DNA of 64,000 nucleotides from a virus, in IMG/VR virus record IMGVR_UViG_3300008113_011148, positions 1 to 64,000 of that record; one strand, written 5' to 3'. The position numbers and the translations under genes were made by a program. Position 1 is the first letter of the stretch, and each line of letters opens with the position of its first letter. Positions 15 through 63,545 of the stretch are shown piece after piece. The notes under the pieces are model-generated. The model saw nothing but the letters and a program-made list of their open reading frames with translations, ran no database searches and was not told where the DNA came from.

Positions 15-233
15 ATGAATAAATTAGATCTACACGGAATAAGACATATCGATGTGCAGAAAACATTAGATAGTTTTTTTTGGGAAAATATGCAAAGAAA
101 ATCACAATCTGTTGAGATTGTCACTGGTATAAGTCACAGAATGAAAGAGATTGTTTATGAAACATGTAAAGATTATGGATTTAAAGTTATAGAGATAGAG
201 TTTAACCCTGGAATTCTGATAGTCAATTTATAA
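15..233 (+). CDS. Smr-domain protein
   Basis: A 72-residue protein that is almost only a Smr (small MutS-related) domain. The LDLHG motif is at residues 4-8, followed by a helix, a central VEIVTG strand and turn, and the closing FNPGILIVNL segment. Smr domains bind or nick branched DNA or RNA, or act in rescue of collided ribosomes; which applies here cannot be told. The usual HGxGxG loop is changed to TGISH, so nuclease activity is uncertain. The frame is open to the window edge, so an N-terminal extension cannot be excluded, but this ATG begins just before the domain. Its 3' end overlaps the convergent next gene by 6 nt. Confidence 0.75.
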   Translation: MNKLDLHGIRHIDVQKTLDSFFWENMQRKSQSVEIVTGISHRMKEIVYETCKDYGFKVIEIEFNPGILIVNL

Positions 234-503
234 ATATTTTGACTGACTTCTAAATGTTTTTATAAAACCATTGTAATTTCCATTTTTAGTCAACTCTAAT
301 TCATGTAATAAATTTTTCGCATACTCTTGAGGTGGAACTCCATCAGACATAGCTTGATTAATTTCATCAGACTTTTTGTCTAAAACTTTAATTAAATTAA
401 GCTGTGTGATATCATAATCAGATATAATATTTATCAGCGAACTTGTGTATTCATCTGTAGTGTAGATTGACTCAAATAATAGAAAGTTTTTTATATACTT
501 CAC
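228..503 (-). CDS. Small protein with capsid-targeting-like N-terminus
   Basis: A 91-residue protein of unknown function that starts with GTG. Its first residues, MKYIKNFLLFES, fit the recurrent N-terminus seen in about 14 proteins here (Met-Lys, aromatic/basic stretch, then hydrophobic-x-Glu). This resembles the T4 capsid-targeting peptide that the prohead protease cuts after [LI]-x-E. The remainder is helical and polar with no recognised domain. An ATAATATATA box lies 4 nt before the GTG, as in other members. Packaging into the virion is inferred only. Confidence 0.6.
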   Translation of the reverse strand: MKYIKNFLLFESIYTTDEYTSSLINIISDYDITQLNLIKVLDKKSDEINQAMSDGVPPQEYAKNLLHELELTKNGNYNGFIKTFRSQSKYL

Positions 504-507
504 TTAG

Positions 508-517
508 TATATATTAT
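508..517 (-). promoter_or_regulatory. Late-promoter-like box ATAATATATA
   Basis: A one-base variant of the TTAATATATA box found just upstream of several start codons in this window. It ends 4 nt before the GTG of the 228-503 gene. The role as a phage promoter is inferred. Confidence 0.45.
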
Positions 518-723
518 TTATCAATAAAGAATTTACTACCAACACATTTATTACTATTGTTGATATCTGATTTATAACCCCACACATCATTTGATATCAT
601 ATGGCATTTGTGATTAGTTATTTTACCAATGGATTTCATTTTTTCAACATAGTTTCTGAATTTAAGACTATGTTGATTTTTATTTCTCCAAGGACACTCT
701 TTACAAGGCTGACGACATTCCAT
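514..723 (-). CDS. Cysteine-rich small protein, CxxCPW type (DUF6283-like)
   Basis: A 69-residue protein with Cys pairs CRQPCKECPW near the N-terminus, then CHM in the middle and CVG near the end. This spacing recalls the small phage and bacterial cysteine-rich family DUF6283 (CxxCPW ... CH ... CxG). It probably binds a metal through these cysteines and the histidine. It lies 1 nt from the gene upstream on the same strand, so the two are probably co-transcribed. Function unknown. Confidence 0.5.
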   Translation of the reverse strand: MECRQPCKECPWRNKNQHSLKFRNYVEKMKSIGKITNHKCHMISNDVWGYKSDINNSNKCVGSKFFIDK

Positions 724-724
724 T

Positions 725-1081
725 TTAGTATCTTTTAATTACATTACCATACCGATCTCTGAGTTGTGTTTCAGATTTAGTCCTAACCACTATATTAGTA
801 TCTTGAAATTTTGCCTCAATAGCACCCTCACATATTTTTCTTATTCTATTTCCATAGATATCTCTAGTCTCAACAACACCATTTAAATAAGTTACAATAA
901 ATATTTTTTCTTTTTCAGAAAAATTAGCATAATTAACTGAATCACATATTTTCCTGGAAGTGTTCCCATTACTATCACATGTGTAAAGCGTATCTAATTT
1001 TATCTTAAAATTCATAGGTTTTTTATTGATATTACAAATATAAGAATTAATATTTGATTTTCCTAATGAAATATATACCAC
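725..1081 (-). CDS. Repeat protein with xRDxYGNxIRKI units
   Basis: A 118-residue protein that starts with GTG. It holds about three imperfect copies of a 30-35 residue unit whose clearest core is [TL]RD-x-YGN-x-I-[RK]-[RK]; the copies begin near residues 35, 73 and 108. Short Asp-x-Tyr-Gly-Asn turns of this type occur in beta-hairpin or partial beta-propeller repeats. No signal peptide is seen. It is divergent from the histidine kinase gene with only 3 nt between the two start codons, so each promoter must lie inside the other gene. Function unknown. Confidence 0.5.
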   Translation of the reverse strand: MVYISLGKSNINSYICNINKKPMNFKIKLDTLYTCDSNGNTSRKICDSVNYANFSEKEKIFIVTYLNGVVETRDIYGNRIRKICEGAIEAKFQDTNIVVRTKSETQLRDRYGNVIKRY

Positions 1082-1084
1082 AAT

Positions 1085-7694: not shown

Positions 7695-8870
7695 TTAGTT
7701 GAGCATTTGTTTGAAATTTTCAATTTCAATTCTTTTTATTTCATCACCTAAGGCTTTTCCTTTGAAACCTTGTGACATCAATTCCTGAGCAGATGTTGTT
7801 GGTTTGTATTCTACAAACTTTATTTTTACTGGATCATTTATACCTAACGCTCTAAACCATTCTAAAATAGTTTTATCTTCTATATGACATTGTAATTTTG
7901 ATTTATGTAAATCAAATGCAGTATCTGCTGTTAATTCTAAAAGTCTAATTAAAAAGACAACTTTAGAAGCTATCTGAGAATCTATTCTATATTCTTGCAC
8001 TAATCTTTTTTCTAAACCATCTGTATTCTCATTTTTAAAAAGGTTGGCAATCACAACAACAAAGTCTTTACTATCAACTAATTCAGTATTGATGTTAGAT
8101 CCTGGAAATACTTCAGACCACATATCAAATTTAGTAAAGAAGTTAAGATAATTTCTATAGTCTTTTGCTTGTTTCCAAGACTTGCACATTTCTTCCCAAA
8201 TTCTTTCTTGAGAAATTCTTTTCATTTCACCACTTTCAGGATCAATGTTTTCTAATTGTTTTCTTTTTTCAATTGCCTTCTCGGTATCTTTATGTAGTGG
8301 GTGTCCATATCTTGAAGCAAAACGGAAAGCTCTTAAAATTCTTAAAGAATCTTCATCAAATCTTTCAATCGGATCACCAACCATTTGAGTGACACCTTGC
8401 TCTAAATGTTCACGACCACCAGTCAAATCAACTATTTCTTTTTTATCTAAATCGTAAAAAAGCGCATTATATGTTAAGTCTCTTCGTTTAACATCATCTT
8501 CAATAGTAACTCCTAATTTTACTTCAGGGTTTCTACCTTTTGAAACATCTTCTCTGAATGTAGCAATTTCCATACCCATTGGTTGATCGTTGGTAAATAC
8601 AACAACAACTCCGAATGCCTTACCCTGTAAATTGGTTTTGTATTTATTTCCTAATATTTCTAATACTTCATCTGGAAGTGCATCAGTCGCTAAGTCAAAG
8701 TCTTTAGGAGTATCTCCAGTTAAGAAGTCTCTAACGGCTCCTCCAACAACATATAGTTTCTTGCCTTTTGATTTGAAAAGTAATTGTAAATCTTTTACAG
8801 ACTCTGGAATAATATCCCACATATTGTCTGATTTTGATTCTAAAAATTGTTTATATTTTTTTATTTTCAT
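7695..8870 (-). CDS. CCA-adding tRNA nucleotidyltransferase with capsid-targeting-like N-terminus
   Basis: A 391-residue class II tRNA nucleotidyltransferase or poly(A) polymerase relative. It shows GGAVRD (43-48), the metal-binding DFDLATD (57-63), VKRRDLTYNAL near 130 and the ERFDEDSLRILRAFRFASR helix, followed by an all-helical C-terminal half. These enzymes add or repair the 3' CCA of tRNA. The first residues, MKIKKYKQFLES, precede the catalytic domain and match the recurrent peptide of this window (hydrophobic-x-Glu at 9-11), so the enzyme may be packaged and injected; that is inference. A TGAATATATA box lies 5 nt before the ATG. CCA-adding and poly(A)-adding activity cannot be distinguished by eye. 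Confidence 0.85.
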   Translation of the reverse strand: MKIKKYKQFLESKSDNMWDIIPESVKDLQLLFKSKGKKLYVVGGAVRDFLTGDTPKDFDLATDALPDEVLEILGNKYKTNLQGKAFGVVVVFTNDQPMGMEIATFREDVSKGRNPEVKLGVTIEDDVKRRDLTYNALFYDLDKKEIVDLTGGREHLEQGVTQMVGDPIERFDEDSLRILRAFRFASRYGHPLHKDTEKAIEKRKQLENIDPESGEMKRISQERIWEEMCKSWKQAKDYRNYLNFFTKFDMWSEVFPGSNINTELVDSKDFVVVIANLFKNENTDGLEKRLVQEYRIDSQIASKVVFLIRLLELTADTAFDLHKSKLQCHIEDKTILEWFRALGINDPVKIKFVEYKPTTSAQELMSQGFKGKALGDEIKRIEIENFKQMLN

Positions 8871-8904: not shown

Positions 8905-9402
8905 TTAGTATATGACTATACCGAACTCTATAAAATTAGAAGGTGAAACCTCTCTGAAACTTTTGTTGAGATTGTCTATATTATATTCTAAAATAGAAAA
9001 TCTTGAATCACCACCACAAGTCCAAAAAAACAATTTTAAAGACTCTTCTCCTAAATAAAACTCAAGATGTTTGAGTGTGTTATAAAACCAACTGGTGTTA
9101 TATTTTCTTGGTTTTAAGAAATCATTTTTTATAAAATTTTTATCAAATTCAAAATTTATATAAATTTTAGGTTCGATAGATTTTTTTACCATTGTTGGTA
9201 ATTTTTTCAATGGAGTTTTAACCAAATTATTAAAATTTAGATCATCGTATGTGAATATATCAAACTCCATATCATTTTCTTGAAATTCAATTAGAATATC
9301 TTTAATGACTTTACAAGTCGATGTTAAATCTAATTGATTGTTTTCAAAATTAATTGAAGTGGATTCGTTAAATTTCTTTAAGTATTTCATAATGTATTTC
9401 AT
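8905..9402 (-). CDS. Unknown protein with capsid-targeting-like N-terminus
   Basis: A 165-residue protein. There are two in-frame starts 12 nt apart; the second (9390) gives MKYLKKFNEST, which matches the start of the neighbouring paralogues exactly, and is the more likely one. Possible prohead-protease cut after F-N-E. The rest is mixed alpha/beta without a recognised domain. It is the last gene of a five-gene run (13117 to 8905) of proteins with the same N-terminus, separated by 0-10 nt. Confidence 0.6.
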   Translation of the reverse strand: MKYIMKYLKKFNESTSINFENNQLDLTSTCKVIKDILIEFQENDMEFDIFTYDDLNFNNLVKTPLKKLPTMVKKSIEPKIYINFEFDKNFIKNDFLKPRKYNTSWFYNTLKHLEFYLGEESLKLFFWTCGGDSRFSILEYNIDNLNKSFREVSPSNFIEFGIVIY

Positions 9403-9405: not shown

Positions 9406-10683
9406 TTAATCTCTATATAATGAATTTAATCTTGTTATTCTTAACTTATCTATAAATTCTTCAAACTCTGACAATTCAACTGGTCTTTCATCATGCTCAC
9501 ACCAAGTTTCTAATATATCTTCTTTAAAGTCTTTACCATTAGGTTGTATGTAATCGATGTCACCTTCAAAAAGAGCAACTAATAAGTTTCTGAATTTGAT
9601 TGCTTCCCTTCTATTAGCAAAATAAACTTCACTGAATTCAGACCCCTCAATTGATATTACACCCGATGGAGTAAGTGGTAGTTTCACACGATCTTCATCT
9701 GTATAATTTTGTGTAGTAAGATTGATATAAATATCTTGTAACCAAATTATACCATTCGCTCTATTTGTATAACCTTTAATATCACCACCAGCATACCAAT
9801 CTAAAACTTCTAAATCTTCTTCTGAAACTGGATGAACTCCAAACATAAATTGTGGCCAAAGATTATATCTATCAAAATCCATCCATTCTGGTAACAACTC
9901 ATTTTTGTAATAGTCAGAATTAAAATAAATTTGAATGTAACAGTTTGCAAACCTTATTTCACTTGCTGATCTACCAGTAAATCTTAATTGAAATTGACCT
10001 AACTTTTTTGCTTCTTCTAAAGCCTTTTTGTGTTTAGCTTCTACTTCTCTTTGCTTAATAGTTTCAGCCCAAGCTTTAAGTTGCTCAGGTCTTTTGATAT
10101 GACCTAACTTAGACAGTTTATCAGCAGCACTTATATATGTTTGTGGTTTTAATTCTTCATTAGTTGAAAGATGACCTCTTGTTTTATCTACAACAATTTT
10201 ATCTTTAGTGAAGGAAATCTCAAATGTGAATTTATTAACTCTATCAAAAGTCATTGGATCATAAACTTGTGATTTATTAATTTGAGGTCTTCTTTGGTAT
10301 TCTTTTTCAATAGACTTCACACCAAATGTTTCCGGATCTGTTGTCCAATGATAACCTTTAATTTTCTGGTTAATTGTGAATTCATCTTCTGATTCTTCAA
10401 AGTTTTCATCTTCTACACAAGTAAAGTGTTCTATTTCAAATCCTTCAGATTTTAAATAAGACCAAACTGATTCAATTTGAAGTTTTATATCTCCATAAGT
10501 GAATTCTTTAGCCCTACTTACAACAACTTTGACTCTTTCTTTTTGAGAATGATAATCTATTTCAGATACTTTAGTCTCAAAATCTTCATCTCTTAAATCA
10601 ATAAGCAAGTCTTCAATAGTTGATTTCAATTCTGAATTCAATCTAACACCAACAGCTTCTTCATATCTTTTTAAATACTTCAT
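9406..10683 (-). CDS. Tandem paralogue 4 of the KYLKRFNE family (long form)
   Basis: A 425-residue protein beginning MKYLKRYEEA. It shares two modules with the next three genes: TYISAADKLSKLGH followed by a WA-x(3)-[KE] helix (here about 180-220), and a late RREAIKFRNLL helix (about 360-372). The C-terminus SLYRD is shared with the adjacent paralogue. Uniquely, about 160 extra residues are inserted between the N-terminal peptide and the first module. No enzyme motif is seen. Packaging in the capsid is inferred from the N-terminus. Confidence 0.65.
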   Translation of the reverse strand: MKYLKRYEEAVGVRLNSELKSTIEDLLIDLRDEDFETKVSEIDYHSQKERVKVVVSRAKEFTYGDIKLQIESVWSYLKSEGFEIEHFTCVEDENFEESEDEFTINQKIKGYHWTTDPETFGVKSIEKEYQRRPQINKSQVYDPMTFDRVNKFTFEISFTKDKIVVDKTRGHLSTNEELKPQTYISAADKLSKLGHIKRPEQLKAWAETIKQREVEAKHKKALEEAKKLGQFQLRFTGRSASEIRFANCYIQIYFNSDYYKNELLPEWMDFDRYNLWPQFMFGVHPVSEEDLEVLDWYAGGDIKGYTNRANGIIWLQDIYINLTTQNYTDEDRVKLPLTPSGVISIEGSEFSEVYFANRREAIKFRNLLVALFEGDIDYIQPNGKDFKEDILETWCEHDERPVELSEFEEFIDKLRITRLNSLYRD

Positions 10684-10686: not shown

Positions 10687-11547
10687 TTAATCTCTATATA
10701 AACCATTTACTGACATTCTCTTAACCGCCTCAATAGCTCCTTTATAAGTATCCTCTGTAAAAGGATTTTTTGGCCATGTATCTGGATTATTAATATCATA
10801 TTCATCTTCTCTACCTGGTAAAAACTTATCCATTAGTTTTTCTCTCCAGTCTTCTTCATCTAAAATAATTACCTCTTTTAATTGTTGAGCAATTGTTCTA
10901 CCTTTCCAAGTTCCCCAGTTAGCTTTTCCTTCTAATGTATTAGCTAATAAGTTTCTAAATTTCATAGCTTCTGCTCTTGAATTAAAATGGAATGTAAAAC
11001 TATCTCTATCTTCAAATCCACCAGCACCTGCCCTACAAAGAGGAACTGCACCTTTATCACAGAGTGTAAGCCAAAGTCTATTTGTCCAGTATCTATAATC
11101 ATCTCCCCACATTGAGTTATTTCTAAAATACACTATATCCCCGTCTTCACTTGTTTCTAACATTCTAAGTGTTTCGTCATCTGAAGGTATAATTGCAAAC
11201 TCCATAGCAATTCCCATATGCCAATCCATACCCTCATATATCCAATCCCATAATTGGTCTTTAAACCAATCAGATTCTAAACACATCTGTAGATAAAATT
11301 TACCAGAAAAAACATCTTTCTTATTTGACCCATAACCTCTTGTCATAGTAATATCAAATAGACCATACTCTTTATTTTCATCCTGAGCTTGTCTTAACTT
11401 TTGAGATTTCTCTCTTAATTCAACTTGAGTCGCATAATCTAATAATTCAGCACCTCTTCTTTTATGACCCATCTTAGTGAATTTATCACCAGCTGATCTA
11501 TAAGTAGATGCTTTTAACTCTTCATTAAATCTTTTTAAGTATTTCAT
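10687..11547 (-). CDS. Tandem paralogue 3 of the KYLKRFNE family
   Basis: A 286-residue protein beginning MKYLKRFNEELKASTYRSAG. The TY-x-SA-x-[DR]K-[FL]-x-KMGH module directly follows the N-terminal peptide, and SRAEAMKFRNLLANTLEG is the late helix. It ends GLYRD like its neighbour. The middle is Trp/Tyr-rich beta structure. It overlaps the next upstream gene by 4 nt, so the paralogues form one translation-coupled operon. Function unknown. Confidence 0.65.
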   Translation of the reverse strand: MKYLKRFNEELKASTYRSAGDKFTKMGHKRRGAELLDYATQVELREKSQKLRQAQDENKEYGLFDITMTRGYGSNKKDVFSGKFYLQMCLESDWFKDQLWDWIYEGMDWHMGIAMEFAIIPSDDETLRMLETSEDGDIVYFRNNSMWGDDYRYWTNRLWLTLCDKGAVPLCRAGAGGFEDRDSFTFHFNSRAEAMKFRNLLANTLEGKANWGTWKGRTIAQQLKEVIILDEEDWREKLMDKFLPGREDEYDINNPDTWPKNPFTEDTYKGAIEAVKRMSVNGLYRD

Positions 11548-12290
11548 ATCGTTGAGGAAAGTAAATTTGGAGATATTGTTCTAATGTAGTCAGCTGCATC
11601 TTCTAATTTAAATCCATAATCAGAAGAGAATGAATTCTCAGCTAAAATAGTATTAGTTAATTTTTCATAAAGGTCATCAGCATCAGTATATCCAGATGGA
11701 TAACCTAATTGTGGATTACTAAATATTTGAATTAGTAAGGTTTTAAATTTATTAGCAGAAGCTCTATCAGCAAAAGCCACTTTACCATTCATATCTTCAT
11801 CATAGTCCCAAAGTTCATATTTAGTGAATTTAACTTGATCGTCACTTAAATCATACTTCAATGTAAATATCTTACCCCAGAAGAAACCATTTCCAAAATC
11901 ATAGTCAGGACAAAGATCCATATATTGATAGATTAAATCTTCAGATGATGGAATAAGTCCTAAAAAGAAAGTGATTCCATTTTCAGGTTCATCAGAAAAT
12001 GCAAGTTCATCAAAGTTAATATCTAAGTGAAAGTCACCAGTAAGTGTATCACCCTTTCCTGTCCAACTTCTTTTTTCTGGATTTTTTATAGTCATCTTAA
12101 ATGTTCCAAAAGGAGAATAATCTTGTATGCGGTCTTGCCACTTAATCATTTCTTCTTTTTTCTCAGTTTCTTTGGCCCAATCTTTAAGAGCATTTGCTCT
12201 ATCGTGATGACCTAATTTATCTAATTTTCTAGCAGCAGACATATAAGTCTGTGGTCTTAATTCTTCGTTAAATTTCTTTAAATATTTCAT
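11544..12290 (-). CDS. Tandem paralogue 2 of the KYLKRFNE family
   Basis: A 248-residue protein beginning MKYLKKFNEELRPQTYMSAA, with KLDKLGHHDRANALKDWAKE directly after and the late DRASANKFKTLLIQIF helix. It is the same architecture as its neighbours but lacks the YRD ending. There is no signal peptide or membrane segment. Function unknown; the common frame suggests repeated gene duplication followed by rapid divergence of the middle. Confidence 0.65.
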   Translation of the reverse strand: MKYLKKFNEELRPQTYMSAARKLDKLGHHDRANALKDWAKETEKKEEMIKWQDRIQDYSPFGTFKMTIKNPEKRSWTGKGDTLTGDFHLDINFDELAFSDEPENGITFFLGLIPSSEDLIYQYMDLCPDYDFGNGFFWGKIFTLKYDLSDDQVKFTKYELWDYDEDMNGKVAFADRASANKFKTLLIQIFSNPQLGYPSGYTDADDLYEKLTNTILAENSFSSDYGFKLEDAADYIRTISPNLLSSTI

Positions 12291-12298
12291 ACTATTAA

Positions 12299-13117
12299 TT
12301 ATATTTCTCTAAACCAAGTCGATTGGCTACTTTTATCAATGTCAATTGAAAAAAGATTATTAACACTTATCTTATTTATTCTATCTTCAAAATCTTCTAT
12401 GTCGTCAGCTGAAGCATTTACACAACTAAGTAGTTCCATTACCTTTTCTTTGTGTGGTGATATTAAATCATTTAGTTGTCTTTTGAATTTTAGAGCAGAA
12501 GCTCTATCTGAAAATATTCCAAAATATGGATATTCTTTAGCATAATACTTTTTAACAGGCTTTGACTTCATAATCAAAACTTCATTTGTCCATTTATACA
12601 TACCATTTATATCAACTACCGCATCTCCAGTCATTGGCTCTTCAGTATCATAATCCCAATTATATTGGTCTAATCCTTCTTCCCAATTACTAAACCAAAC
12701 TTGAAATGAAAACATCGGTAAATTAGATGTTTTAATTTCTTGCCAGGAGTCATATTTATCTTTTGTTTCTTCAGCAGGTTGAAAAGTAAAATTAAAAGTC
12801 ACACAAAGTGGTTGATTACCAGCTGCCCAATATTCAACCATCTGTTCTGCTGAGTAATCAAAGGTCTTTAGTTCTGAAGAATTTGGTCTACCAAAATAAC
12901 AATCACATTTTGGATTAGTAAATTTAGCCGATTGAGCAATAACATTTGTGGTATTAGCCCAATGTATATTGTAAAAACCATACTGCTTCTCTAATCCATA
13001 GTCAATAAGAGGAGTTGCCCTTTTTTTACCACCACCTGGTAGCTGTCTTAATCTGTAACCAGCTTGTATATAGGTATTTGGTTTAAGCTCTTCGTTGAAT
13101 CTTTTAATATACTTCAT
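12299..13117 (-). CDS. Tandem paralogue 1 of the KYIKRFNE family
   Basis: A 272-residue protein beginning MKYIKRFNEELKPNTYIQAG, the first gene of the tandem run. The late helix DRASALKFKRQLNDLI is conserved, while the first module is degenerate (YRLRQLPGGGKKRA). The centre is Trp/Asn/Thr-rich. A TTAATATATA box lies 6 nt before the ATG and probably drives the whole run down to 8905. Function unknown. Confidence 0.65.
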   Translation of the reverse strand: MKYIKRFNEELKPNTYIQAGYRLRQLPGGGKKRATPLIDYGLEKQYGFYNIHWANTTNVIAQSAKFTNPKCDCYFGRPNSSELKTFDYSAEQMVEYWAAGNQPLCVTFNFTFQPAEETKDKYDSWQEIKTSNLPMFSFQVWFSNWEEGLDQYNWDYDTEEPMTGDAVVDINGMYKWTNEVLIMKSKPVKKYYAKEYPYFGIFSDRASALKFKRQLNDLISPHKEKVMELLSCVNASADDIEDFEDRINKISVNNLFSIDIDKSSQSTWFREI

Positions 13118-13123
13118 ACTTTT

Positions 13124-13133
13124 TATATATTAA
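13124..13133 (-). promoter_or_regulatory. Late-promoter-like box TTAATATATA (leftward)
   Basis: A perfect copy, 6 nt before the ATG of the first tandem paralogue. It is back to back with a rightward copy at 13138-13147. Confidence 0.5.
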
Positions 13134-13137
13134 GTTT

Positions 13138-13147
13138 TTAATATATA
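13138..13147 (+). promoter_or_regulatory. Late-promoter-like box TTAATATATA (rightward)
   Basis: A perfect copy, 4 nt before the ATG of the putative ADP-ribosyltransferase gene. Together with the leftward copy it makes a divergent pair inside a 34-nt intergenic gap. Confidence 0.5.
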
Positions 13148-13151
13148 ATTT

Positions 13152-13574
13152 ATGAAATGGATTAAATTATTCAATAAAATGAATGAGAATAATAGTGTTT
13201 TCTATAACAAAACCTCTGAGTTTATAATCAAAAGTTTACCTAAAGTCAAAGATGGTTATATCAGATTATGGAGAGGAAATAGACCAAATGAAGTGGGTAT
13301 AAATCCAAGTTATACTTCATCTTTAGAAGGAATAGCTTTACCATTTGTCTATGGATATGATGGAGTTTTGTCTTATATAGATTTACCAATTAGTGACATA
13401 TCAAACTATGAAGTTTCTGGTGGAGTTGATGGTGAAGAATTTATAATACCAAATTCTTTATTAAAAAATGTTGTTGTTGTTGATAAAATTCTATATAAAA
13501 AAAATTTACCAGATACATTATCAGTAGGTAATATATCATCATTTGATGATTTTGCTGATAATTTTCTTAAATAA
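13152..13574 (+). CDS. Putative small mono-ADP-ribosyltransferase with capsid-targeting-like N-terminus
   Basis: A 140-residue protein. After an N-terminus of the recurrent type (MKWIKLFNKMNENN) it shows the order of motifs of R-S-E ADP-ribosyltransferases: IRLWRG with R41, YTSSLEGIALPF with the Ser-Thr-Ser-like turn at 55-57 and the following A-x-x-F helix, and GEEFIIP with candidate catalytic E96. T4 Alt, which is packaged and injected to modify host RNA polymerase, belongs to the same superfamily. The -2 Glu/Gln of the classic [QE]-x-E motif is Gly here, so the assignment is a motif-level inference. A TTAATATATA box lies 4 nt upstream. Confidence 0.5.
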   Translation: MKWIKLFNKMNENNSVFYNKTSEFIIKSLPKVKDGYIRLWRGNRPNEVGINPSYTSSLEGIALPFVYGYDGVLSYIDLPISDISNYEVSGGVDGEEFIIPNSLLKNVVVVDKILYKKNLPDTLSVGNISSFDDFADNFLK

Positions 13575-13585
13575 ATATTTGAAGT

Positions 13586-13840
13586 ATGAGACGAATCAAA
13601 CTATTTGAAGATTTCAAGCAAAATAATGAAGAAGGAACTCTTATCACAATCGATGATATAATCAAATGTATTAAGAAAAGAGGAGTTATTTATTCTACAA
13701 TTGTTAAAGAGTATCCAGATAATGATCCGAAAGATCCAATCACTCCAGTTGATATAGATGAAGATGGTTTAATCACAGTTGATATAGACGGTAGAGAATA
13801 CTATGTTGATTTAGATGATGTTGAGAAAATCGAATACTAA
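13586..13840 (+). CDS. Small acidic protein with capsid-targeting-like N-terminus
   Basis: An 84-residue protein beginning MRRIKLFEDF, a member of the same N-terminal set with L-F-E at 6-8. The rest is acidic and beta-rich (VDIDEDGLITVDIDGREYYVDLDDVEK). It follows the putative ADP-ribosyltransferase by 11 nt and is probably co-expressed. An inhibitor or partner role is possible but nothing in the sequence proves it. Confidence 0.55.
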   Translation: MRRIKLFEDFKQNNEEGTLITIDDIIKCIKKRGVIYSTIVKEYPDNDPKDPITPVDIDEDGLITVDIDGREYYVDLDDVEKIEY

Positions 13841-14334
13841 TCTAAAAGTTTTTTTAATTTCAAATCTCGAAGAATAGATTTTGTTTTTTCATTTATAATT
13901 AATGGTATGTCATTTTCACTTCTGTAATTCATCCCAGTGAGGTCATAAACTAAGTTGTTGTAATTATCGATAATATTTCGCATTATCGATATATGTGGCT
14001 CATTATTTCTCCAAAGATTTTTTTTTGGAAATGGTATCCACATATCTATGTTTTTATTATTACAATATTCAATCAAATCTGTTATTTTGTGTGTGTCTTG
14101 CATATACACATCAGTGTGAAAAAGTATTAAATTTTTTCCATCTAATTTGTCAAATATTATTTTATCTGGATGATTGCATCCGAACTTAGTCCATAAATAT
14201 GTTTCTGCCAATTTATGTCGATATAATATCATACATTTTGGTAAATTATAAAAAATATGGAATGTAGCTCTCGCTGCTACATTCCATGCAAGTTTATAAT
14301 CAATACTCATATCAAATTCTAGTACATAAATCAT
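13837..14334 (-). CDS. Unknown protein of the C-terminal-tail set
   Basis: A protein of 165 residues from the ATG at 14334. A TTG 15 nt upstream lies inside a terminator stem, so it is not chosen. The sequence has W-N-V-A-A-R, IIFDKLDGKNLILFHTDVY and a polar C-terminal half, with no recognised family. It resembles predicted SLOG/TIR-like alpha/beta folds only vaguely. It ends LRDLKLKKLLD, the tail type shared by many neighbours (Arg, then Lys-[IL]-x-x-[IL]-[IL]). Confidence 0.55.
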   Translation of the reverse strand: MIYVLEFDMSIDYKLAWNVAARATFHIFYNLPKCMILYRHKLAETYLWTKFGCNHPDKIIFDKLDGKNLILFHTDVYMQDTHKITDLIEYCNNKNIDMWIPFPKKNLWRNNEPHISIMRNIIDNYNNLVYDLTGMNYRSENDIPLIINEKTKSILRDLKLKKLLD

Positions 14335-14338
14335 AATC

Positions 14339-14364
14339 AAAAAAGTCAACTTTGAAGTTGACTT
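14339..14364 (-). terminator. Rho-independent terminator after vWA gene
   Basis: A 10-bp stem (AAGTCAACTT / AAGTTGACTT, 2-nt loop) is followed by six T on the minus strand. It sits 4 nt after the stop of the vWA metallopeptidase gene and before the next minus-strand start. Confidence 0.8.
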
Positions 14365-14368
14365 ATTT

Positions 14369-15832: not shown

Positions 15833-15849
15833 ATTTTTTAATATTTATA

Positions 15850-15857
15850 CAAATATA
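15850..15857 (-). promoter_or_regulatory. Bacteroidota-type -7 box TATATTTG
   Basis: Matches the TAnnTTTG element of the Bacteroidota housekeeping sigma factor. It lies 17 nt before the ATG of the vWA metallopeptidase gene. Confidence 0.55.
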
Positions 15858-15881
15858 ATATTTATAAATCAATAAACCTAA

Positions 15882-16349
15882 TTATTTTTTTGATTTAGGT
15901 TTAATATCAAAGTTTTTAATTTTTTCTAATGTGCTGTCTAACGAGTGATTTATTTTAGAAAGAACTTCTTTCTTAAATGCATTTCTTCTAATTGACATTT
16001 CACGAATAAATTTATCAAGTAAATAACTTTCTAAGTCAGCTCTAATATGAACATCGTATCCGAATACCGAATTAATTACTTTAACATTCAATGACTCAAG
16101 AAAAACAAAAAGTGTTCTATCCCCAGAGCTTATGTAACATTCTTGAGTTTGTATATCGTAATATAGTTTACTATCCTTATTGTGTAAGATAGTAAGAAAT
16201 ATTTCACAAACCGTATCTTCAGCCTCAGTCAGTCTTTTTGGCTTTGTTAGTTTTTTTTCTTTACCTAAAGTTTTGAATAATCTTAGGTAATAAACCTTAA
16301 TCAATCTTCTGAACCTTGTCAACTTTTTATTAAATTCTTCTTTTGTCAT
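15882..16349 (-). CDS. Unknown basic helical protein
   Basis: A 155-residue protein rich in Lys, Arg and Leu. The start is helical and basic (FNKKLTRFRRLIKVYYLRLF); the middle reads GDRTLFVFLESLNVKVINSVFG and the end is Lys-rich. It lies 7 nt from the upstream gene in a minus-strand run. It lacks the shared C-terminal tail of its neighbours. No family recognised. Confidence 0.55.
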   Translation of the reverse strand: MTKEEFNKKLTRFRRLIKVYYLRLFKTLGKEKKLTKPKRLTEAEDTVCEIFLTILHNKDSKLYYDIQTQECYISSGDRTLFVFLESLNVKVINSVFGYDVHIRADLESYLLDKFIREMSIRRNAFKKEVLSKINHSLDSTLEKIKNFDIKPKSKK

Positions 16350-34527: not shown

Positions 34528-34537
34528 TTAATATATA
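34528..34537 (+). promoter_or_regulatory. Late-promoter-like box TTAATATATA
   Basis: A perfect copy, 4 nt before the ATG of the 34542-35237 gene; the whole 17-mer through the ATG equals that at 26160-26176. Confidence 0.5.
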
Positions 34538-34541: not shown

Positions 34542-35237
34542 ATGAAAAGACTTAATAAGTATGACCAGTTTCTTATTTTAGAGAAGTTTGACGATAATTT
34601 CAAAGCTGAATTACAGAGACTTGGTATAACAGATGAAGATGAAATCAATCGTCATCTTTATTTTGCACATAGAGGACACTTATCTGACTATTTACGAACA
34701 CAGGGTAAAGAAATTAAGTTTGGTATGATAAGAGCTCTTTTCTTAGATGCTCAAGTCGCTAAAAAAAGAACAGATTTAAAAGTAGGAATTGTTAAAGCTA
34801 TACATAGAATACTTCCTATGGCACTTGCTCCTTTCTTTCCTATAGCGGCAATATTTGGAATGATATTTGGATCCACCAGAGCATTTAACAAAATATTAGC
34901 TCCGATATTACAAGACTCATCACATTCTTACGAAGGATTTCTAAAAAGTTTTATTGATAGCTCAATGAAAGTGGCTGAAGGTGAGATTCCAGTTAAAGAC
35001 CGTTTTACAAGAGCATTCGTTGTTTCTGATAGATTAGTAGCAGCAATAAGACCAGAAGTCTTACAACAATTCTCTTTTGATTTATCGAATAGAATGTCTA
35101 AGGAAGATCCAGACATGGTTGTTCCAGATAATTATATTGAAAATGAATTAAAAGAATTCTTAAATAGAAATTTCGATGTAAACCCACCAATACCATTAAA
35201 AGGTGATACCAATTGGGATGATATTGAATCGATGTAA
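34542..35237 (+). CDS. Unknown protein with capsid-targeting-like N-terminus and hydrophobic segment
   Basis: A 231-residue protein beginning MKRLNKYDQFLILEKFDD, a member of the N-terminal set (I-L-E at 12-14). A hydrophobic stretch near 88-108 (LPMALAPFFPIAAIFGMIFG) could insert in a membrane, for example at DNA entry or as a core component. The rest is helical and polar. It converges on the next minus gene with 1 nt between them. Function unknown. Confidence 0.6.
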   Translation: MKRLNKYDQFLILEKFDDNFKAELQRLGITDEDEINRHLYFAHRGHLSDYLRTQGKEIKFGMIRALFLDAQVAKKRTDLKVGIVKAIHRILPMALAPFFPIAAIFGMIFGSTRAFNKILAPILQDSSHSYEGFLKSFIDSSMKVAEGEIPVKDRFTRAFVVSDRLVAAIRPEVLQQFSFDLSNRMSKEDPDMVVPDNYIENELKEFLNRNFDVNPPIPLKGDTNWDDIESM

Positions 35238-47526: not shown

Positions 47527-49449
47527 TTACGAAGATTTCCTAACTCTGAGGTACCAGTCTGTTAACAATTTGATTTGTTTATTGGTATATCCTCTTTCTT
47601 TCATTCTATTAACAAATTCAGAGTGTTTCTTTTCTTCATCTTTAGAAGTTTTACCAGTAAATGAAATCACTGGAATAAGGTCTTCAGTTTTAGAGAATAT
47701 TCTTTTTTCAATCACATTCTTAATTTTCTCATAAGAATCCCAAGAAGGCGATTTACTATTTTTTGCCTTATGTCTTAGATAGAATTGAACAACATCATTT
47801 CTAAAATCTTTTGGATTAGCAATACCAGCTGGTTTTTCAATTTTTTCTAATTCTTCATTAAGTGCACCTCTATCAAATTGTTGACCAGTTTCAGGATCTC
47901 TATAATCATTATCTTGACACCAGTGATCAGCATAAGTGATGTATCTCTCAAATAAATTTTGTCCGTATTCTTGATAAGAATCAACATAAGCTTTTTGAAT
48001 TTCATCACCAATAAATTCGGCATATTTAGAAGTCATAGTGGACTTTAGAAGATTAAGATAATATTCTTCAGTGTCTTTATTCATCTGAGCCTTAACAATC
48101 TCTTGCTCCAAAACATAGAAAAGATGAACCGGATTAGCGGCAACCTCTTCTGAGTCATGATTAAATACTTTTGAAAGTACCTTAAAAGCAAAACGAGTAG
48201 AAATTCCATTCATTCCTTCGGTAATTCCGGCATCATCTTTATATTCTTGTAAGGATTTTGCTTTTGGGTCAGATTCTTTTAGGTTTTCACCATTATAAAC
48301 TCTCATTTTTGAATACATAAGTGAGTTTTCTGGTCTTTTCATTCTTGTCATTACACAAAATTGAGCTAACATTTCTAATGTCTTAGGCGCACAAGGTGCT
48401 TCAGATAGAGAAGAATGTTTAAGTAATTTTTTGTAGATTTCAACCTCTTCATCAATACGAAGACAATAAGGAACTCTTACGATATAAACTCTATCTAAAA
48501 AAGCTTCGTTCTTTTTATCATTTGAGAAAGTTTCCCATTCGGACTCATTTGAGTGAGCTAAAAGAATTCCTTGAAAAGGAATTGCTGGAAGATTTTCAGT
48601 TCCATTGAAATTACCTTCTTGTGTTGCGGTAAGTAGTGGATGTAAAAGTTTAATTGGTGCTTTAAACATCTCAACAAACTCCATAAGTCCTTGATTGGAT
48701 TTACAAAGTGAACCTGAGTAAGAATAAGCATCAGCATCATTTTGAGGAAACTCAGCCAATTTTCTAATATCAACTTTTCCAACAAGTGCTGAAATATCTT
48801 GATTGTTTTCGTCTCCTGGTTCTACTTTAGAGATACCAATTTGTGAAGAGATAGAACATTTTAATTTTCTAACTTTAAATTTTGAAATATCACCTTCAAA
48901 CTCAGCTAATCTTTTAGTAGCCCACGGTGAAGGACAAGAAGGAACATATCTTCTGTGAATACCATATTCTTCTTCTAATTCTGTTCTGTAGTTAGAAAAA
49001 AGACCAAGTGGATTTTCCCAAACAGGTGAAACCTCACCATCAGCCACAAGGACATAAATATGACTTTTTTCCATTAATTGTTTTAATCTCTCAGCCAAAG
49101 AAGATTTACCACCACCAACTGGTCCGAGTAAGTAAAGAATTTGTTTCTTTTCTTCAAGTCCTTGTGCGGCATGTTTGAAAAAAGAAACAATTTGTTCGAT
49201 TGTGTCTTCCATTCCATAAAATTCAGAAAATGCTGGATATCTTTTAATAACTCTATTAGAGTAGATACGACTTAGTCGCTCATCGAGTTTTGTGTCAATT
49301 ATTTCCGGATCACCTATAGCTTTAAGCATTCTTTCGGCTGGTGATGAATAAGTAGACTTATCATTCTTACAAATCTCTAAAAACTCTTTGATAGTTAAAT
49401 CTTTTTCAGTTTGAATAAACTCTTTTTTAATCGTGTTTAATAGGCTCAT
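47527..49449 (-). CDS. PrkA-type serine protein kinase (AAA)
   Basis: A 640-residue PrkA/YeaG homologue. The AAA domain has Walker A GPVGGGKSS (109-117) and the following LAERLK helix, then ILLAHSNESEW in the Walker B/sensor region; the C-terminal PrkA domain (from about 400) is complete. E. coli YeaG is of the same length. Reported activities are serine kinase and, in Bacillus, AAA protease. It is the first gene of the PrkA-DUF444-SpoVR operon. A complete set on a phage suggests that it replaces or overrides the host stress-adaptation module. Confidence 0.9.
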   Translation of the reverse strand: MSLLNTIKKEFIQTEKDLTIKEFLEICKNDKSTYSSPAERMLKAIGDPEIIDTKLDERLSRIYSNRVIKRYPAFSEFYGMEDTIEQIVSFFKHAAQGLEEKKQILYLLGPVGGGKSSLAERLKQLMEKSHIYVLVADGEVSPVWENPLGLFSNYRTELEEEYGIHRRYVPSCPSPWATKRLAEFEGDISKFKVRKLKCSISSQIGISKVEPGDENNQDISALVGKVDIRKLAEFPQNDADAYSYSGSLCKSNQGLMEFVEMFKAPIKLLHPLLTATQEGNFNGTENLPAIPFQGILLAHSNESEWETFSNDKKNEAFLDRVYIVRVPYCLRIDEEVEIYKKLLKHSSLSEAPCAPKTLEMLAQFCVMTRMKRPENSLMYSKMRVYNGENLKESDPKAKSLQEYKDDAGITEGMNGISTRFAFKVLSKVFNHDSEEVAANPVHLFYVLEQEIVKAQMNKDTEEYYLNLLKSTMTSKYAEFIGDEIQKAYVDSYQEYGQNLFERYITYADHWCQDNDYRDPETGQQFDRGALNEELEKIEKPAGIANPKDFRNDVVQFYLRHKAKNSKSPSWDSYEKIKNVIEKRIFSKTEDLIPVISFTGKTSKDEEKKHSEFVNRMKERGYTNKQIKLLTDWYLRVRKSS

Positions 49450-49551: not shown

Positions 49552-49561
49552 TTAATATATA
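49552..49561 (+). promoter_or_regulatory. Late-promoter-like box TTAATATATA
   Basis: A perfect copy, 4 nt before the ATG at 49566. Confidence 0.5.
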
Positions 49562-49565: not shown

Positions 49566-50123
49566 ATGAAAATCGTAAAATACCAAGAATTTATAAAAGA
49601 GGAATTACAAGATACTCCTGAGACTTATGTTGCTACCGCTTTAAACAATTTGAAGCGAAAGATTGATAAAATGTTTGAATTTCAATCTGATGACGAAAAT
49701 GATAAAGAAGAGAATAAAGAGCAAGATATAAAAAGTGTAAAGAAAAAAAGTAAAGAGAAAATGAGTTTCGAAGACTTGGGTGTTAGACTTGAAAGTTCTG
49801 AAATTTCTAAATATTCAAAACTATTTGATTCATTGACTGTCAAATTTTCAGACGATCAGAATACTTATACTCTTATATTTATGATAGATTTAAAAGATGC
49901 TATGCCGAAAGATCCTGCAAAAGATTTTGACATAGACCAAATAGAAAAGTGTTATATTAAATTTAAAAAATATGACTTAGACACATTTGAGGTAATTGGT
50001 CAATTAAGTAAAAATGTAGAAATGAAAAAAATTGATGAGGACTTCATTATAGAGTTAAAATTAGAACTCGATGAGAAATTTGGAGACTCAGATGAGGAAA
50101 AATTTGAGATAGAAACAGAATAA
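49566..50123 (+). CDS. Unknown protein with capsid-targeting-like N-terminus
   Basis: A 185-residue protein beginning MKIVKYQEFIKEELQDTPE, the copy closest to the T4 internal-protein type (KYQEFI-x-E, I-K-E at 10-12). An acidic/basic low-complexity linker (about 40-65) is followed by a beta-rich domain (LTVKFSDDQNTYTLIFMIDL) and an acidic end. The small compact domain after a linker fits a packaged protein; no enzyme motif is visible. Confidence 0.65.
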   Translation: MKIVKYQEFIKEELQDTPETYVATALNNLKRKIDKMFEFQSDDENDKEENKEQDIKSVKKKSKEKMSFEDLGVRLESSEISKYSKLFDSLTVKFSDDQNTYTLIFMIDLKDAMPKDPAKDFDIDQIEKCYIKFKKYDLDTFEVIGQLSKNVEMKKIDEDFIIELKLELDEKFGDSDEEKFEIETE

Positions 50124-51959: not shown

Positions 51960-51969
51960 TTAATATATA
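51960..51969 (+). promoter_or_regulatory. Late-promoter-like box TTAATATATA
   Basis: A perfect copy, 5 nt before the ATG at 51975. Confidence 0.5.
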
Positions 51970-51974: not shown

Positions 51975-53216
51975 ATGAAAGTTTTTAAATATTCAGAGTT
52001 TTTAACTGAAAGTAAGATTGAAGAATTACTTTTAGAATCTAAAGTTGTTTTTTCAAAGAAGTTTTTAAATCTTCTTAATAGAATGAGAACAAATAAAATC
52101 GCTAGTGATTTATTAAATATTTATTCGAAAGATTACAATGTTCAACATAATTATATTGATATTACGGATAATAAAGAAGAGGTATCATTTACACCTGATA
52201 GAAAGGTTCAAGAATTGATTGCAGGGAAACCAGAAGTATATAAAGTTGGAACTCGTCGTCAATTAACACATAGTGATTCAAATAACAAATTATTTGAAGC
52301 TTTGGGATATGATAAAAATCAAGAATATTGGACGCCAAATGATGGACAAAGAGGTTTAATTAAATCAGAGGTTGTTAGTCCAACTTCTGGTAAAGTATTT
52401 GTCCTTTTTGAAGAATTAACTGATGAAGTTGAAAAAAGATATGCTGTTTTAAATAAAGATTGCTTAAGCTTAGCAGATTTTGATGATTCAAACATATGGA
52501 AAACTTCTCGTAATCCGATTAGAATTGGAAGACTTATAAGACCACTTCTAAGATCTGTTGGTGTTACTGTTACTGATAGAGAAGTCGAGGAGTTTACAAA
52601 TATGTGGAAAGCAACATACGATTTTGCAGCAGATGTTTTAAAACAATTTGATATTGTTAAAGGTAATACTATTGCTTATTGGTATGACTATGGAAAATAT
52701 GTTGATGGTGGTGGAACACTTAACAACTCTTGTATGGCTGAAGTTGATTCGGATTACTTTGAGATTTATACTTCAAATTCACAAGTTCAATTAGTTATCC
52801 TTTATGATGATAACGGACAAGTTCAAGATGGTAAATACACATCAACTAAAATTAAAGGTAGAGCAATTCTTTGGGATGCTGAACTAAATGGTCAAAAAGA
52901 AATGTTTATGGATAGAATCTATACTACTTATGATTCAGATGTAGACCTTTTCAAACAATTCGCTCAAAAGAATGGTTGGTTTTATAAAGACTCTCAAAGT
53001 ATGACACCAAGAGAATATATTACAAACGGAACATCTAAATCAAGACCAGAGATAATTGTTAAAGTAGATAACGCAGATTGTGAATACTATCCATATGTTG
53101 ATACTATGTGTTTTTGTTATACTGGTTCTAATGAGTTAAGAAATACACAAGACGATGATGATTCTTCTATGAGAGTTCTTCGCTCAACTGAAGGTGAATG
53201 GTATAGTGATTATTAA
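51975..53216 (+). CDS. Large protein with capsid-targeting-like N-terminus
   Basis: A 413-residue protein beginning MKVFKYSEFLTESKIEELLL (L-T-E at 10-12, the canonical prohead-protease type). The body has TIAYWYDYGKYVDGGGTLNN, SCMAEVDSDYFEIYTSNSQV, VLIKGRAILWD-like and FMDRIYTTYDSDVDLFKQFA segments that recur in hypothetical proteins of other large phages; no catalytic function is known for them. It is the strongest candidate here for a major packaged protein. It lies 2 nt upstream of another member. Confidence 0.65.
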   Translation: MKVFKYSEFLTESKIEELLLESKVVFSKKFLNLLNRMRTNKIASDLLNIYSKDYNVQHNYIDITDNKEEVSFTPDRKVQELIAGKPEVYKVGTRRQLTHSDSNNKLFEALGYDKNQEYWTPNDGQRGLIKSEVVSPTSGKVFVLFEELTDEVEKRYAVLNKDCLSLADFDDSNIWKTSRNPIRIGRLIRPLLRSVGVTVTDREVEEFTNMWKATYDFAADVLKQFDIVKGNTIAYWYDYGKYVDGGGTLNNSCMAEVDSDYFEIYTSNSQVQLVILYDDNGQVQDGKYTSTKIKGRAILWDAELNGQKEMFMDRIYTTYDSDVDLFKQFAQKNGWFYKDSQSMTPREYITNGTSKSRPEIIVKVDNADCEYYPYVDTMCFCYTGSNELRNTQDDDDSSMRVLRSTEGEWYSDY

Positions 53217-53218: not shown

Positions 53219-53818
53219 ATGAAGATAAAGAAGACATATAAAGAATTCATAAAAGAAAGTAATGAATATATTGATGAAAAAACAATCAATGATATTTTTA
53301 TTGATTTAATTGATATGGATTTCACACTTACGTTTATTGATGGATACCGAGCTAGTAAAGATAAAGGCGCTAAGTATTTTATTGATTTAAAGAAAACCGC
53401 TAATAGTAAATATGACTATATTGAAAATGATTATGCTTATGGTGTCTCTAATTTAGAACCTATGAAAGTAGATATAAGTAAGGTTTTAGATGCCTTACAA
53501 TCGGCTAAAGAAACTTTGAATAGTATGGAATACACAGTTGGTTATGAAATTGAATTCAACTTTAATGATCAAAGTCAATTTCAGATTTCTTGTCATATTC
53601 AACATAATGATACTATTGGTCAAATAATAGAATCAAAGAAAGAAATAAAATCAGAATTAAAAGGGAATGACTACCAAATGGTTTCTGGTATTATAGATAT
53701 ACTTAAAAAAGTAAAAGATAAAGAAAATAGAATGGAAATAGCAAAAGATATGATTTCTCAATTTAAAAGAGAAGATATAAAATTTGACTATGATAAATTT
53801 TTAGATTCAATAAAATAA
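53219..53818 (+). CDS. Unknown protein with capsid-targeting-like N-terminus
   Basis: A 199-residue protein beginning MKIKKTYKEFIKESNEYIDE (I-K-E at 11-13). It has an alpha/beta middle (DMDFTLTFIDGYRASKDKGA, YTVGYEIEFNFNDQSQFQIS) and a helical Lys-rich end. It is coupled to the previous gene and ends at a strong terminator. Function unknown. Confidence 0.6.
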   Translation: MKIKKTYKEFIKESNEYIDEKTINDIFIDLIDMDFTLTFIDGYRASKDKGAKYFIDLKKTANSKYDYIENDYAYGVSNLEPMKVDISKVLDALQSAKETLNSMEYTVGYEIEFNFNDQSQFQISCHIQHNDTIGQIIESKKEIKSELKGNDYQMVSGIIDILKKVKDKENRMEIAKDMISQFKREDIKFDYDKFLDSIK

Positions 53819-60114: not shown

Positions 60115-60115
60115 G

Positions 60116-62776: not shown

Positions 62777-62805
62777 ACTTTATTTATTTACAAATTATAA
62801 TATTA

Positions 62806-63003: not shown

Positions 63004-63009
63004 TTTAAT

Positions 63010-63017
63010 TATCTTTG
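63010..63017 (+). promoter_or_regulatory. Bacteroidota-type -7 box TATCTTTG
   Basis: TAnnTTTG match, 4 nt before the ATG at 63022. Confidence 0.5.
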
Positions 63018-63021
63018 TTTT

Positions 63022-63243
63022 ATGAAAATAAACAAAGGAAATCTCTGGTCAGTTTTAGAAAAATACGATTCAAAAGAATTTAGTGGTCTTTGTAATGGAC
63101 TTTCTAATATCATACAAAACAAATCAAATTCAGGTGATTTACTTGATGTTTTTACATTCATGGAAAAAATCGAAAAATCAGACAGAGATATTCTCGAAAA
63201 AGAAATCGGAAACGATATAACTACCGTTTTATTTATGATTTAA
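63022..63243 (+). CDS. Unknown small protein
   Basis: A 73-residue helical protein (WSVLEKYDSKEFSGLCNGLS ... IEKSDRDILEKEI). It has a TATCTTTG box 4 nt upstream. No family recognised. Confidence 0.5.
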   Translation: MKINKGNLWSVLEKYDSKEFSGLCNGLSNIIQNKSNSGDLLDVFTFMEKIEKSDRDILEKEIGNDITTVLFMI

Positions 63244-63246
63244 GTA

Positions 63247-63256
63247 TTAATATATA
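63247..63256 (+). promoter_or_regulatory. Late-promoter-like box TTAATATATA
   Basis: A perfect copy, 4 nt before the ATG at 63261. Confidence 0.5.
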
Positions 63257-63260
63257 CTTA

Positions 63261-63545
63261 ATGAAATATATTAAAGATTTCTGTAATTACAATCCCGTTT
63301 TAAATTTGAAGGTTTCTGAATTTATTGAAAGGAATAAAACTGGCTTACTCCATTTATGGAATAAAGACAAATCTGAAGAAGAGAATATTGAGTTCTTAAC
63401 TAATTATTTTACTGAGTATCCTGAGTTAATGGATGATAAAATTGACTTGAAAAGAATCACAACAATTCAATCAAAATCCAGTATTAAAAACTCAGCACCT
63501 ATTTTACAAAATATAGGAGGTGTTAAAGATTTTAGAAGTTTCTAA
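63261..63545 (+). CDS. Unknown protein with degenerate capsid-targeting-like N-terminus
   Basis: A 94-residue helical protein beginning MKYIKDFCNYNPV. The start matches the recurrent peptide (MKYIK-x-F) but lacks the Glu of the predicted cleavage motif. A TTAATATATA box 4 nt upstream supports membership. It overlaps the converging partial gene by 4 nt. Confidence 0.5.
   Translation: MKYIKDFCNYNPVLNLKVSEFIERNKTGLLHLWNKDKSEEENIEFLTNYFTEYPELMDDKIDLKRITTIQSKSSIKNSAPILQNIGGVKDFRSF

Follow-up and report, generated by a model that had tools for sequence, protein, structure and literature searches.

The window analyzed here, bases 1-64000 of the 67,754-base IMG/VR virus fragment IMGVR_UViG_3300008113_011148, contains fourteen genes whose products begin with a similar short N-terminal sequence, which we call the tag. 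Its core is aromatic-x-x-aromatic-aliphatic-x-Glu in a long form, or a shorter [FIL]-x-Glu. A first-pass annotation had listed these fourteen N-termini and compared them with the capsid targeting sequences of phage T4 internal proteins. All fourteen can be read in the sequence (Table 1), including that of gene 63261 (genes are named by their first coordinate), which had been called degenerate and in which the Glu is not in place. The proteins were also described as otherwise unrelated, which is only partly right, given that 9406, 10687, 11544 and 12299 encode paralogues. For gene 8905 the likeliest start is the second Met (near 9390, MKYLKKFNES).

By sequence comparison, the fragment (G000 in multi-record comparisons) is related to four complete 634-735 kb genomes of uncultured phages, LR745206.1 (W01, 634,780 bp), LR756502.1 (W02, 642,428 bp), LR756504.1 (W03, 636,363 bp) and LR756501.1 (W04, 735,411 bp). 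The topoisomerase of the window has 78-80% identity to those of W01 and W02 and 38-43% to those of W03 and W04. The nearest IMG/VR contigs found through gene 51975 are G001 (175,894 bp, 92% identity across that protein) and G002 (78%). Open reading frames (ORFs) were taken as the longest open frames after a simple overlap filter, so some gene starts are wrong.

Table 1. Tagged genes and promoter-like elements in the window; a slash marks the predicted cut.
Position	Strand	Feature	Basis
228..503	-	Tagged protein, 91 aa, MKYIKNFLLFE/S	N-terminus read; W01 and W02 relatives tagged too
508..516	-	TAATATATA element, 4 nt ahead of gene 228 start	Read from sequence; enrichment across records
7695..8870	-	Tagged CCA-adding enzyme / tRNA nucleotidyltransferase, MKIKKYKQFLE/S	Enzyme match begins at about residue 36
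8905..9402	-	Tagged protein, MKYLKKFNE/S from second Met (~9390)	N-terminus read
9406..10683	-	Tagged two-part protein, MKYLKRYEE, separate N-terminal domain, then NEELKPQTY family body	Sequence comparison
10687..11547	-	Tagged NEEL.P.TY family member, MKYLKRFNE/E	Sequence comparison
11544..12290	-	Tagged NEEL.P.TY family member, MKYLKKFNE/E	Sequence comparison
12299..13117	-	Tagged NEEL.P.TY family member, MKYIKRFNE/E	Sequence comparison
13124..13132	-	TAATATATA element ahead of gene 12299	Read from sequence; enrichment across records
13139..13147	+	TAATATATA element, 4 nt ahead of gene 13152	Read from sequence; enrichment across records
13152..13574	+	Tagged protein, MKWIKLFNKMNE/N	Pfam and PDB sequence search without family match
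13586..13840	+	Tagged 84-aa protein, MRRIKLFEDFK	Tagged in 4/4 records of its cluster (G000, G001, W01, W02)
34529..34537	+	TAATATATA element, 4 nt ahead of gene 34542	Read from sequence; enrichment across records
34542..35237	+	Tagged 231-aa protein, MKRLNKYDQFLILE/K	Relatives in G001, W01, W02, W04
49553..49561	+	TAATATATA element, 4 nt ahead of gene 49566	Read from sequence; enrichment across records
49566..50123	+	Tagged protein, MKIVKYQEFIKE/E	Long-form tag in all three relatives found (W01, W02, G001 from inner Met)
51961..51969	+	TAATATATA element, 5 nt ahead of gene 51975	Read from sequence; enrichment across records
51975..53216	+	Tagged 413-aa protein, MKVFKYSEFLTE/S (compare scaffold repeat YSEYLAES)	In 91-member single-linkage cluster
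53219..53818	+	Tagged protein, MKIKKTYKEFIKE/S	N-terminus read, relatives compared
63248..63256	+	TAATATATA element, 4 nt ahead of gene 63261	Read from sequence; enrichment across records
63261..63545	+	Degenerate tag MKYIKDFCNYNP, without cleavage Glu	Look-alikes at three loci
63542..64000 (gene to 64339 of record)	-	Tagged protein missing from first list, MKWLKTYKIFE/N	Tag HMM, N-terminus read

Written as the regular expression M[KR]x[LIVMFK]x1-3[FY]x0-7E and applied to proteins of at least 60 aa, the tag matches 17 of the 90 proteins of the record, compared with a mean of 3.1 over 200 shufflings of residues 3-18 and with 0.8 predicted from internal Met residues. In the complete genomes it matches 101/917 proteins of W01 (21.6 shuffled; 9.5 expected from internal Met), 129/943 of W02 (25.8; 7.0), 55/896 of W03 (20.4; 5.1) and 22/980 of W04 (14.9; 6.9), the last count falling inside the range of the shuffled sets. 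In W04 the tag takes a form of its own, with INE in 41 N-termini (9.3 expected) and NEA in 20 (2.7 expected). Because the regular expression missed the T4 internal proteins and most of the W04 form, and accepted a false Sir2 start (W01_306524) through an alternative Met, it was replaced as tag caller by a decoy-calibrated profile hidden Markov model (HMM) of the first 22 residues, iterated, with a threshold that passes 0.5% of 11,917 internal-Met decoys.

The final HMM called 169/917 proteins in W01, 199/943 in W02, 99/896 in W03, 150/980 in W04, 38/189 in G001 and 19/90 in the record. Tagged proteins average 202-248 aa in length and contain 12.5-19.9% of the coded residues. The original observation is thus confirmed and is larger than first reported: the set is indeed unusually large, but fourteen understates it, with about 100-200 tagged proteins per complete genome. 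The search for more such genes that the first-pass annotation had proposed added five within the record, namely a minus-strand gene at 63542-64339 and four calls in 64001-67754, which start at 64326 (a doubtful start), 65263, 65752 and 66162. In a held-out test for the window, an HMM trained only on W01 and W02 recovered 14/14 of the named genes and 19/90 record proteins with 2/277 internal-Met decoys, and one trained only on W04 recovered 8/14 and 12/90 with 0/277 decoys. In the first round, training on W01, W02, G000 and G001 already gave 103 calls in W04 and 80 in W03, and training on W04 only gave 90 in W01, 113 in W02, 48 in W03 and 12 in the record.

Six control phages had 0.6-4.3% of their proteins called tagged, with decoys at 0.1-1.6%: PTm1 (7/297; decoys 3/905), MaF61 (1/172 in 160 kb), PAU (6/289), P-SSM2 (1/132 in 100 kb), Lak-B8 (4/92 in 80 kb, TAG read through) and T4 (5/217 in 148.5 kb). 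LR756500, the next nearest phage by capsid protein, had 11/215 in 150 kb and decoys of 9/510. The A+T content of PTm1 and Lak-B8 about equals that of the huge phages without a comparable tag excess, which argues that base composition does not make the tag. All three T4 internal proteins, IPI-IPIII, are among the five T4 matches in 217 ORFs, which by arithmetic would occur by chance with a probability of about 6e-6. The HMM trained on W01 and W02 found four T4 proteins, again including all three, and the HMM trained on W04 also found four, two of which are IPII and IPIII.

The prohead protease anticipated by the first-pass annotation is represented among the relatives by a match to protease family S77 in all four complete genomes and in contig G007. 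Each complete genome also encodes a Gp23-type capsid protein and a T4-type portal, both over the family cut-off, and the capsid, portal and protease genes are grouped in one region. The S77 domain stands at the start of a protein some 700-800 residues long, where it is fused to a scaffold. In an alignment of six sequences (T4, W02, W03, W04, PTm1 and PAU), His85 and Ser140, which are catalytic in T4 gp21, never vary, and the W01 protease reads the same by eye. Contig G007 has a CCA enzyme copy 67% identical to that of the window and a scaffold-protease 74% identical to that of W02 over residues 1-522.

A [FILMVYW]xE site is present in 567 of the 674 called N-termini. Compared with 17,784 internal sites, the P2 position of the tag Glu is enriched in Asn (5.2-fold) and Phe (5.6-fold), and the P1' position in Ser (4.4-fold) and Ala (2.6-fold). 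Placed by analogy with T4 gp23, the capsid-protein propeptides of W01-W04 end in SINE/N, QINE/N, QIHE/N and QMNE/N, and cutting would occur at this Glu. In three small tagged proteins (W01_93266, W02_80294 and W04_730457) the capsid protein N-arm, GMGxV...GSGD, follows the tag, and the tag Glu aligns with the Glu of the capsid propeptide. Three other small proteins, W01_554784, W02_542908 and W03_233552, have a capsid-like GMGxV arm after an N-terminus of another kind and are possibly minor capsid parts.

Behind the protease domain are about ten 14-residue repeats, D-K-N-I-A-Y-S-E-Y-[IL]-A-E-N-L. This unit matches long-form tags position by position, as in KYSEFLTES of gene 51975, KYQEFIKEE of gene 49566 and TYQEFIAEA of T4 IPIII; short-form tags such as MKYLKRFNE have only the [FIL]-x-Glu end in common with it. 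The core motif [FYW]xx[FYW][ILVM]xE occurs in the first 22 residues of 28/916, 29/942, 24/895 and 61/979 proteins in W01-W04, compared with 4.3, 4.6, 4.4 and 3.5 expected. In all four genomes the protein with the most internal copies is the scaffold-protease, with 11, 11, 11 and 14, the runners-up having 2, 2, 2 and 7. Second in W04 is a 1691-aa protein (21458-) with seven FV[KN]Y[LI][IA]E copies spaced 58-61 residues apart.

A six-frame search of six records (140 kb of G001) for at least two units of a stricter repeat pattern returned the four scaffolds and three other proteins only: G001 47375-47542 (minus strand, 55 aa), W01 460435-460686 (minus strand, 83 aa) and W04 619760-620383 (207 aa). 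The first of these opens with a tag-like unit, MIEYQEYLKE, and the second, from an inner Met, with MNYEDYIAES; scaffold repeats follow in both. These two mini-scaffold proteins both end in KIKNLFN, and their genes lie downstream of dnaJ, directly in G001 and with one 68-aa ORF between in W01. An HMM of the scaffold repeats alone was dropped as sole proof of the likeness, and the scaffold argument rests on the core-motif count and the mini-proteins because the enrichment with that HMM was modest.

The promoter-like element TAATATATA is associated with the tagged genes. It ends at most 10 nt before the start of 40/169 tagged genes in W01, 65/199 in W02, 16/99 in W03, 19/150 in W04, 9/38 in G001 and 8/19 in G000, compared with 31/748, 36/744, 13/797, 15/830, 3/151 and 4/71 untagged genes, with odds ratios of 7-15 in all six records. 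An element within 40 nt, or a close same-strand neighbor in front, was found for 150/169 tagged genes of W01 and 175/199 of W02. With a matrix built from 105 of the sites before tagged genes, 29 T4-type head and tail genes (eight capsid and protease genes having been added by hand) scored a median of 5.7, and 54 replication and nucleotide genes scored -0.2 (p = 2e-4). In W01-W04 the element lies mostly 4-6 nt or about 17-27 nt ahead of start codons, with few between; the 4-6 nt spacing to the ATG suggests that the late messages may be leaderless.

The conservation seems to lie in the protein and not in the DNA, because the codon use of the tag is near the genome's and genes without the element carry equally strong tags. 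Tag Glu, Asn and Ser codons are used much as in the genome, both Ser codon families occurring at P1', although TTA/CTA at Leu4 and AAA at Lys2 are somewhat preferred. The 222 tagged genes of W01 and W02 without an element within 60 nt have a mean tag score of 15.8 versus 15.5 and a site frequency of 0.85 versus 0.86.

Nearly all T4-type replication and tail genes lack the tag. Among 84 pairs of T4 gene and genome (23 genes, E < 1e-5) the tag was called in four. Two are the RNA ligase 1 genes of W01 and W02, the third encodes a Nudix protein of W03, and the fourth call, on W03 gp46, we take to be false. The RNA ligase is tagged in W01, W02 and seemingly G001 (from an inner Met), whereas the W03 and W04 versions begin directly at the enzyme and are untagged. 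The start of the CCA-adding enzyme is tag-like in G001, W01, W02 and the contigs L230 and L231, whereas the W03 enzyme has no such start. A Pfam scan of regex-tagged proteins covered 137/145 in W02 and 118/119 in W01, the remainder crossing stretch borders. Most had no Pfam match. RNA_lig_T4_1 was found in both genomes. One or two members each matched NUDIX, Phage_lysozyme, SET, HNH, PTH2, the 2'-5' RNA ligase superfamily, RNase_T or other families, and the tags of these members were checked only in part. The tags checked by sequence are those of the RNA ligases, the Nudix protein W01_18783, the lysozyme W02_489926, the racemase-like G001_61465, and a 2H-phosphoesterase and RNase_T protein of W01 and G001 that has a weak match to Acb1, below the cut-off. 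In W02 the 2H-phosphoesterase and RNase_T occur on separate proteins, both of which open with a tag-like N-terminus, in one case from an inner Met. SIR2 was rejected as a tagged family, its match belonging to the false tag call. Ribosomal protein S21, reported with basic/aromatic N-terminal extensions in huge phages in the available part of PMC7162821, was also rejected as a carrier, since S21 of W01-W04 has no tag.

Tagged genes turn over faster than untagged ones. A reciprocal match in W03 exists for 13/169 tagged and 139/748 untagged genes of W01. Among W01-W02 orthologue pairs, both members are tagged in 48, neither in 327, and 24 are discordant, several by choice of start. In W02, at 11122-16151 and at 20-36 kb, up to ten tagged genes stand in a row, often abutting, with the look of cargo operons. 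A domain resembling I-x-D-I-L-x-E-L-x-D-D-G-F is common by eye in the tagged bodies (e.g., W02_13051 and G001_57699), and no family match for it was seen.

Some proteins of the window deserve separate mention. The C-terminal part of the 51975-53216 protein falls in a single-linkage cluster to which each complete huge phage contributes 14-29 members, and it has distant matches in Cellulophaga phages, e.g., phi38:1. The 13152 protein and the 63542 family resemble, by eye, a T4 Alt-like packaged ADP-ribosyltransferase; this identity is not claimed, because no support for it came from Pfam, PDB sequence search or AlphaFold. The best PDB sequence match of the 63542 family is a glutathione transferase at E 0.028, and its AlphaFold model is poor (pLDDT 38), as is that of 9406 (pLDDT 54.7), which could not be used. 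Look-alikes of the gene 63261 N-terminus, MKF[IL]KE[FW]S.WNP, were found at three loci, the likeness being judged by eye.

The T4-like interpretation proposed by the first-pass annotation survived every sequence test that was run, among them the refuting condition named there, the lack of a prohead protease in the full genome, as judged from the complete relatives. We consider it very probable that the shared N-terminus is a T4-type capsid targeting propeptide, which these phages would use far more widely than T4 does. The system would then work like T4 internal-protein packaging, and we infer the cutting, packaging, injection and function of the tagged proteins accordingly. The promoter-like element common to tagged and head genes suggests that they would be expressed late and together. 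The tag would mimic one 14-residue unit of the scaffold and so bind into the prohead core, a step proposed from a sequence match that only the long form shows clearly. The scaffold-linked S77 protease would cut after Glu in the scaffold repeats, the capsid propeptide and the tags, leaving mature cargo inside, and by comparison with T4 this cargo would be packed with the DNA and then injected. The predicted cargo appears diverse and fast-changing, including RNA ligase 1, the CCA-adding enzyme, Nudix, 2H-phosphoesterase with exonuclease, lysozyme and many unassigned families, which suggests early counter-defense and take-over functions.

Several points weigh against this interpretation. The S77 matches of the four complete genomes, at 20-25 bits, are below the 27-bit Pfam cut-off. 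No S77 protease or head region was found in the 67,754-bp record, a fragment, so the protease link runs through its relatives. There is no [FILMVYW]xE site in the searched span of 107/674 called N-termini, and the HMM of scaffold repeats favored N-termini only 3.5-fold at 0.1% decoys. Ahead of tagged genes the matrix scores exceed those ahead of the other genes (p = 1e-38), a comparison that is partly circular because the matrix was built from tagged genes. Two of the five T4 matches are homing endonucleases, and the other T4 gp21 substrates, Alt, gp22, gp24, gp67 and gp68, are not among them. A few calls are false, such as the Sir2 start by regular expression and gp46 of W03 by HMM, which still passes doubtful starts (gp46 and 64326 of the record). 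None of the papers listed by literature searches offered proteomics of virions of these phages, which are uncultured.

The tag could also lead into the prohead core while many of its carriers are core or scaffold partners that are degraded or lost at maturation, so that far fewer proteins are injected. T4 gp67 and gp68 largely meet that fate, a few proteins here consist almost wholly of tag-like or scaffold-like repeats, and the N-termini without a clear cut site would fit such a role. We nevertheless regard this as unlikely, though the strongest of the alternatives, given the average length of the tagged proteins, the several enzymes among them with no known part in head assembly, and the rarity of repeated core motifs in proteins other than the scaffold. 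It is improbable that the tag is an address to a non-virion target, such as an infection compartment or a chaperone, with its likeness to capsid signals coincidental. The position of the mini-scaffold genes downstream of dnaJ makes a chaperone link possible, but the core common to tag and scaffold repeat, the capsid N-arm behind the tag, the recovery of the T4 internal proteins and the late-type element all argue for the capsid. The idea that the tag is an artefact, either of A+T-rich coding or of some DNA or RNA signal at the start codons of leaderless late messages, has very little to recommend it: TAATATATA does stand 4-6 nt ahead of many tagged starts and the Leu4 and Lys2 codons are biased, but the element-free genes, the Glu, Asn and Ser codons and the A+T-rich control phages speak against it.

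Returning to capsid targeting, we slightly favor a more far-reaching model in which 12-20% of the coded residues of the largest known phages would serve a modular injection system. A copy of the scaffold repeat at the N-terminus would make any protein cargo, and each virion would carry about 100-200 protein species, including tRNA-repair and nucleotide-hydrolyzing enzymes active before phage gene expression. Selection for such cargo could be part of the reason for gigantism. If this is true, the proteins that the largest phages probably inject, most of them without known function, can be listed by a rule applied to sequence alone, and hundreds of unannotated genes become testable candidates for counter-defense or take-over. 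It would partly account for what such genomes are for, suggest that capsid targeting signals originated as copies of scaffold repeats, and provide a tag system with which very large heads could be loaded with proteins.

Among the matches listed in the open-licence literature there was no report of so large a tag set or of mimicry between tag and scaffold. The available part of PMC7824862 describes signal-degrading enzymes in jumbo phages and injected polyvalent proteins, and does not contain the phrases "capsid target" or "internal protein". According to PMC9026906, T4 internal-protein propeptides of 10-19 residues target the core, IPIII needing only its first ten residues; cleavage follows L/I-X-E, the proteins co-purify with gp22, and many of them are ejected along with Alt. 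T-even internal proteins are described in a portion of PMC3012670 as diverse defense proteins in which the targeting sequence alone is conserved.

The huge phages resemble T4 in having an N-terminal propeptide that ends in hydrophobic-x-Glu, an S77 protease (gp21 in T4), and diverse bodies behind a common tag; in T4 the internal proteins bind the scaffold core and IPI counters host defense (PMC9026906, PMC3012670, both in part). They differ from T4, which has three internal proteins and Alt, in having about 100-200 predicted carriers per genome, including several enzymes, a probable cargo that far exceeds the handful known from T4, and in the fusion of the protease to a scaffold of tag-like repeats. 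In the ejection proteins of SPN3US and other phiKZ-like giant phages, many head proteins are cut after Glu by a gp21-like protease and the propeptides are thought to be targeting signals; most of these are longer than 100 residues, and a gp22 counterpart was unconfirmed in giant phages at that date (PMC5694885, in part), whereas here the tag has about 8-15 residues and a candidate scaffold is identifiable. Tenacibaculum phage PTm1 has, by its record annotation, a similar protease-scaffold fusion between portal and capsid genes. Unlike the huge phages, PTm1 has no tandem YSEY[IL]AE repeat that we could see and little excess of tags over its decoys.

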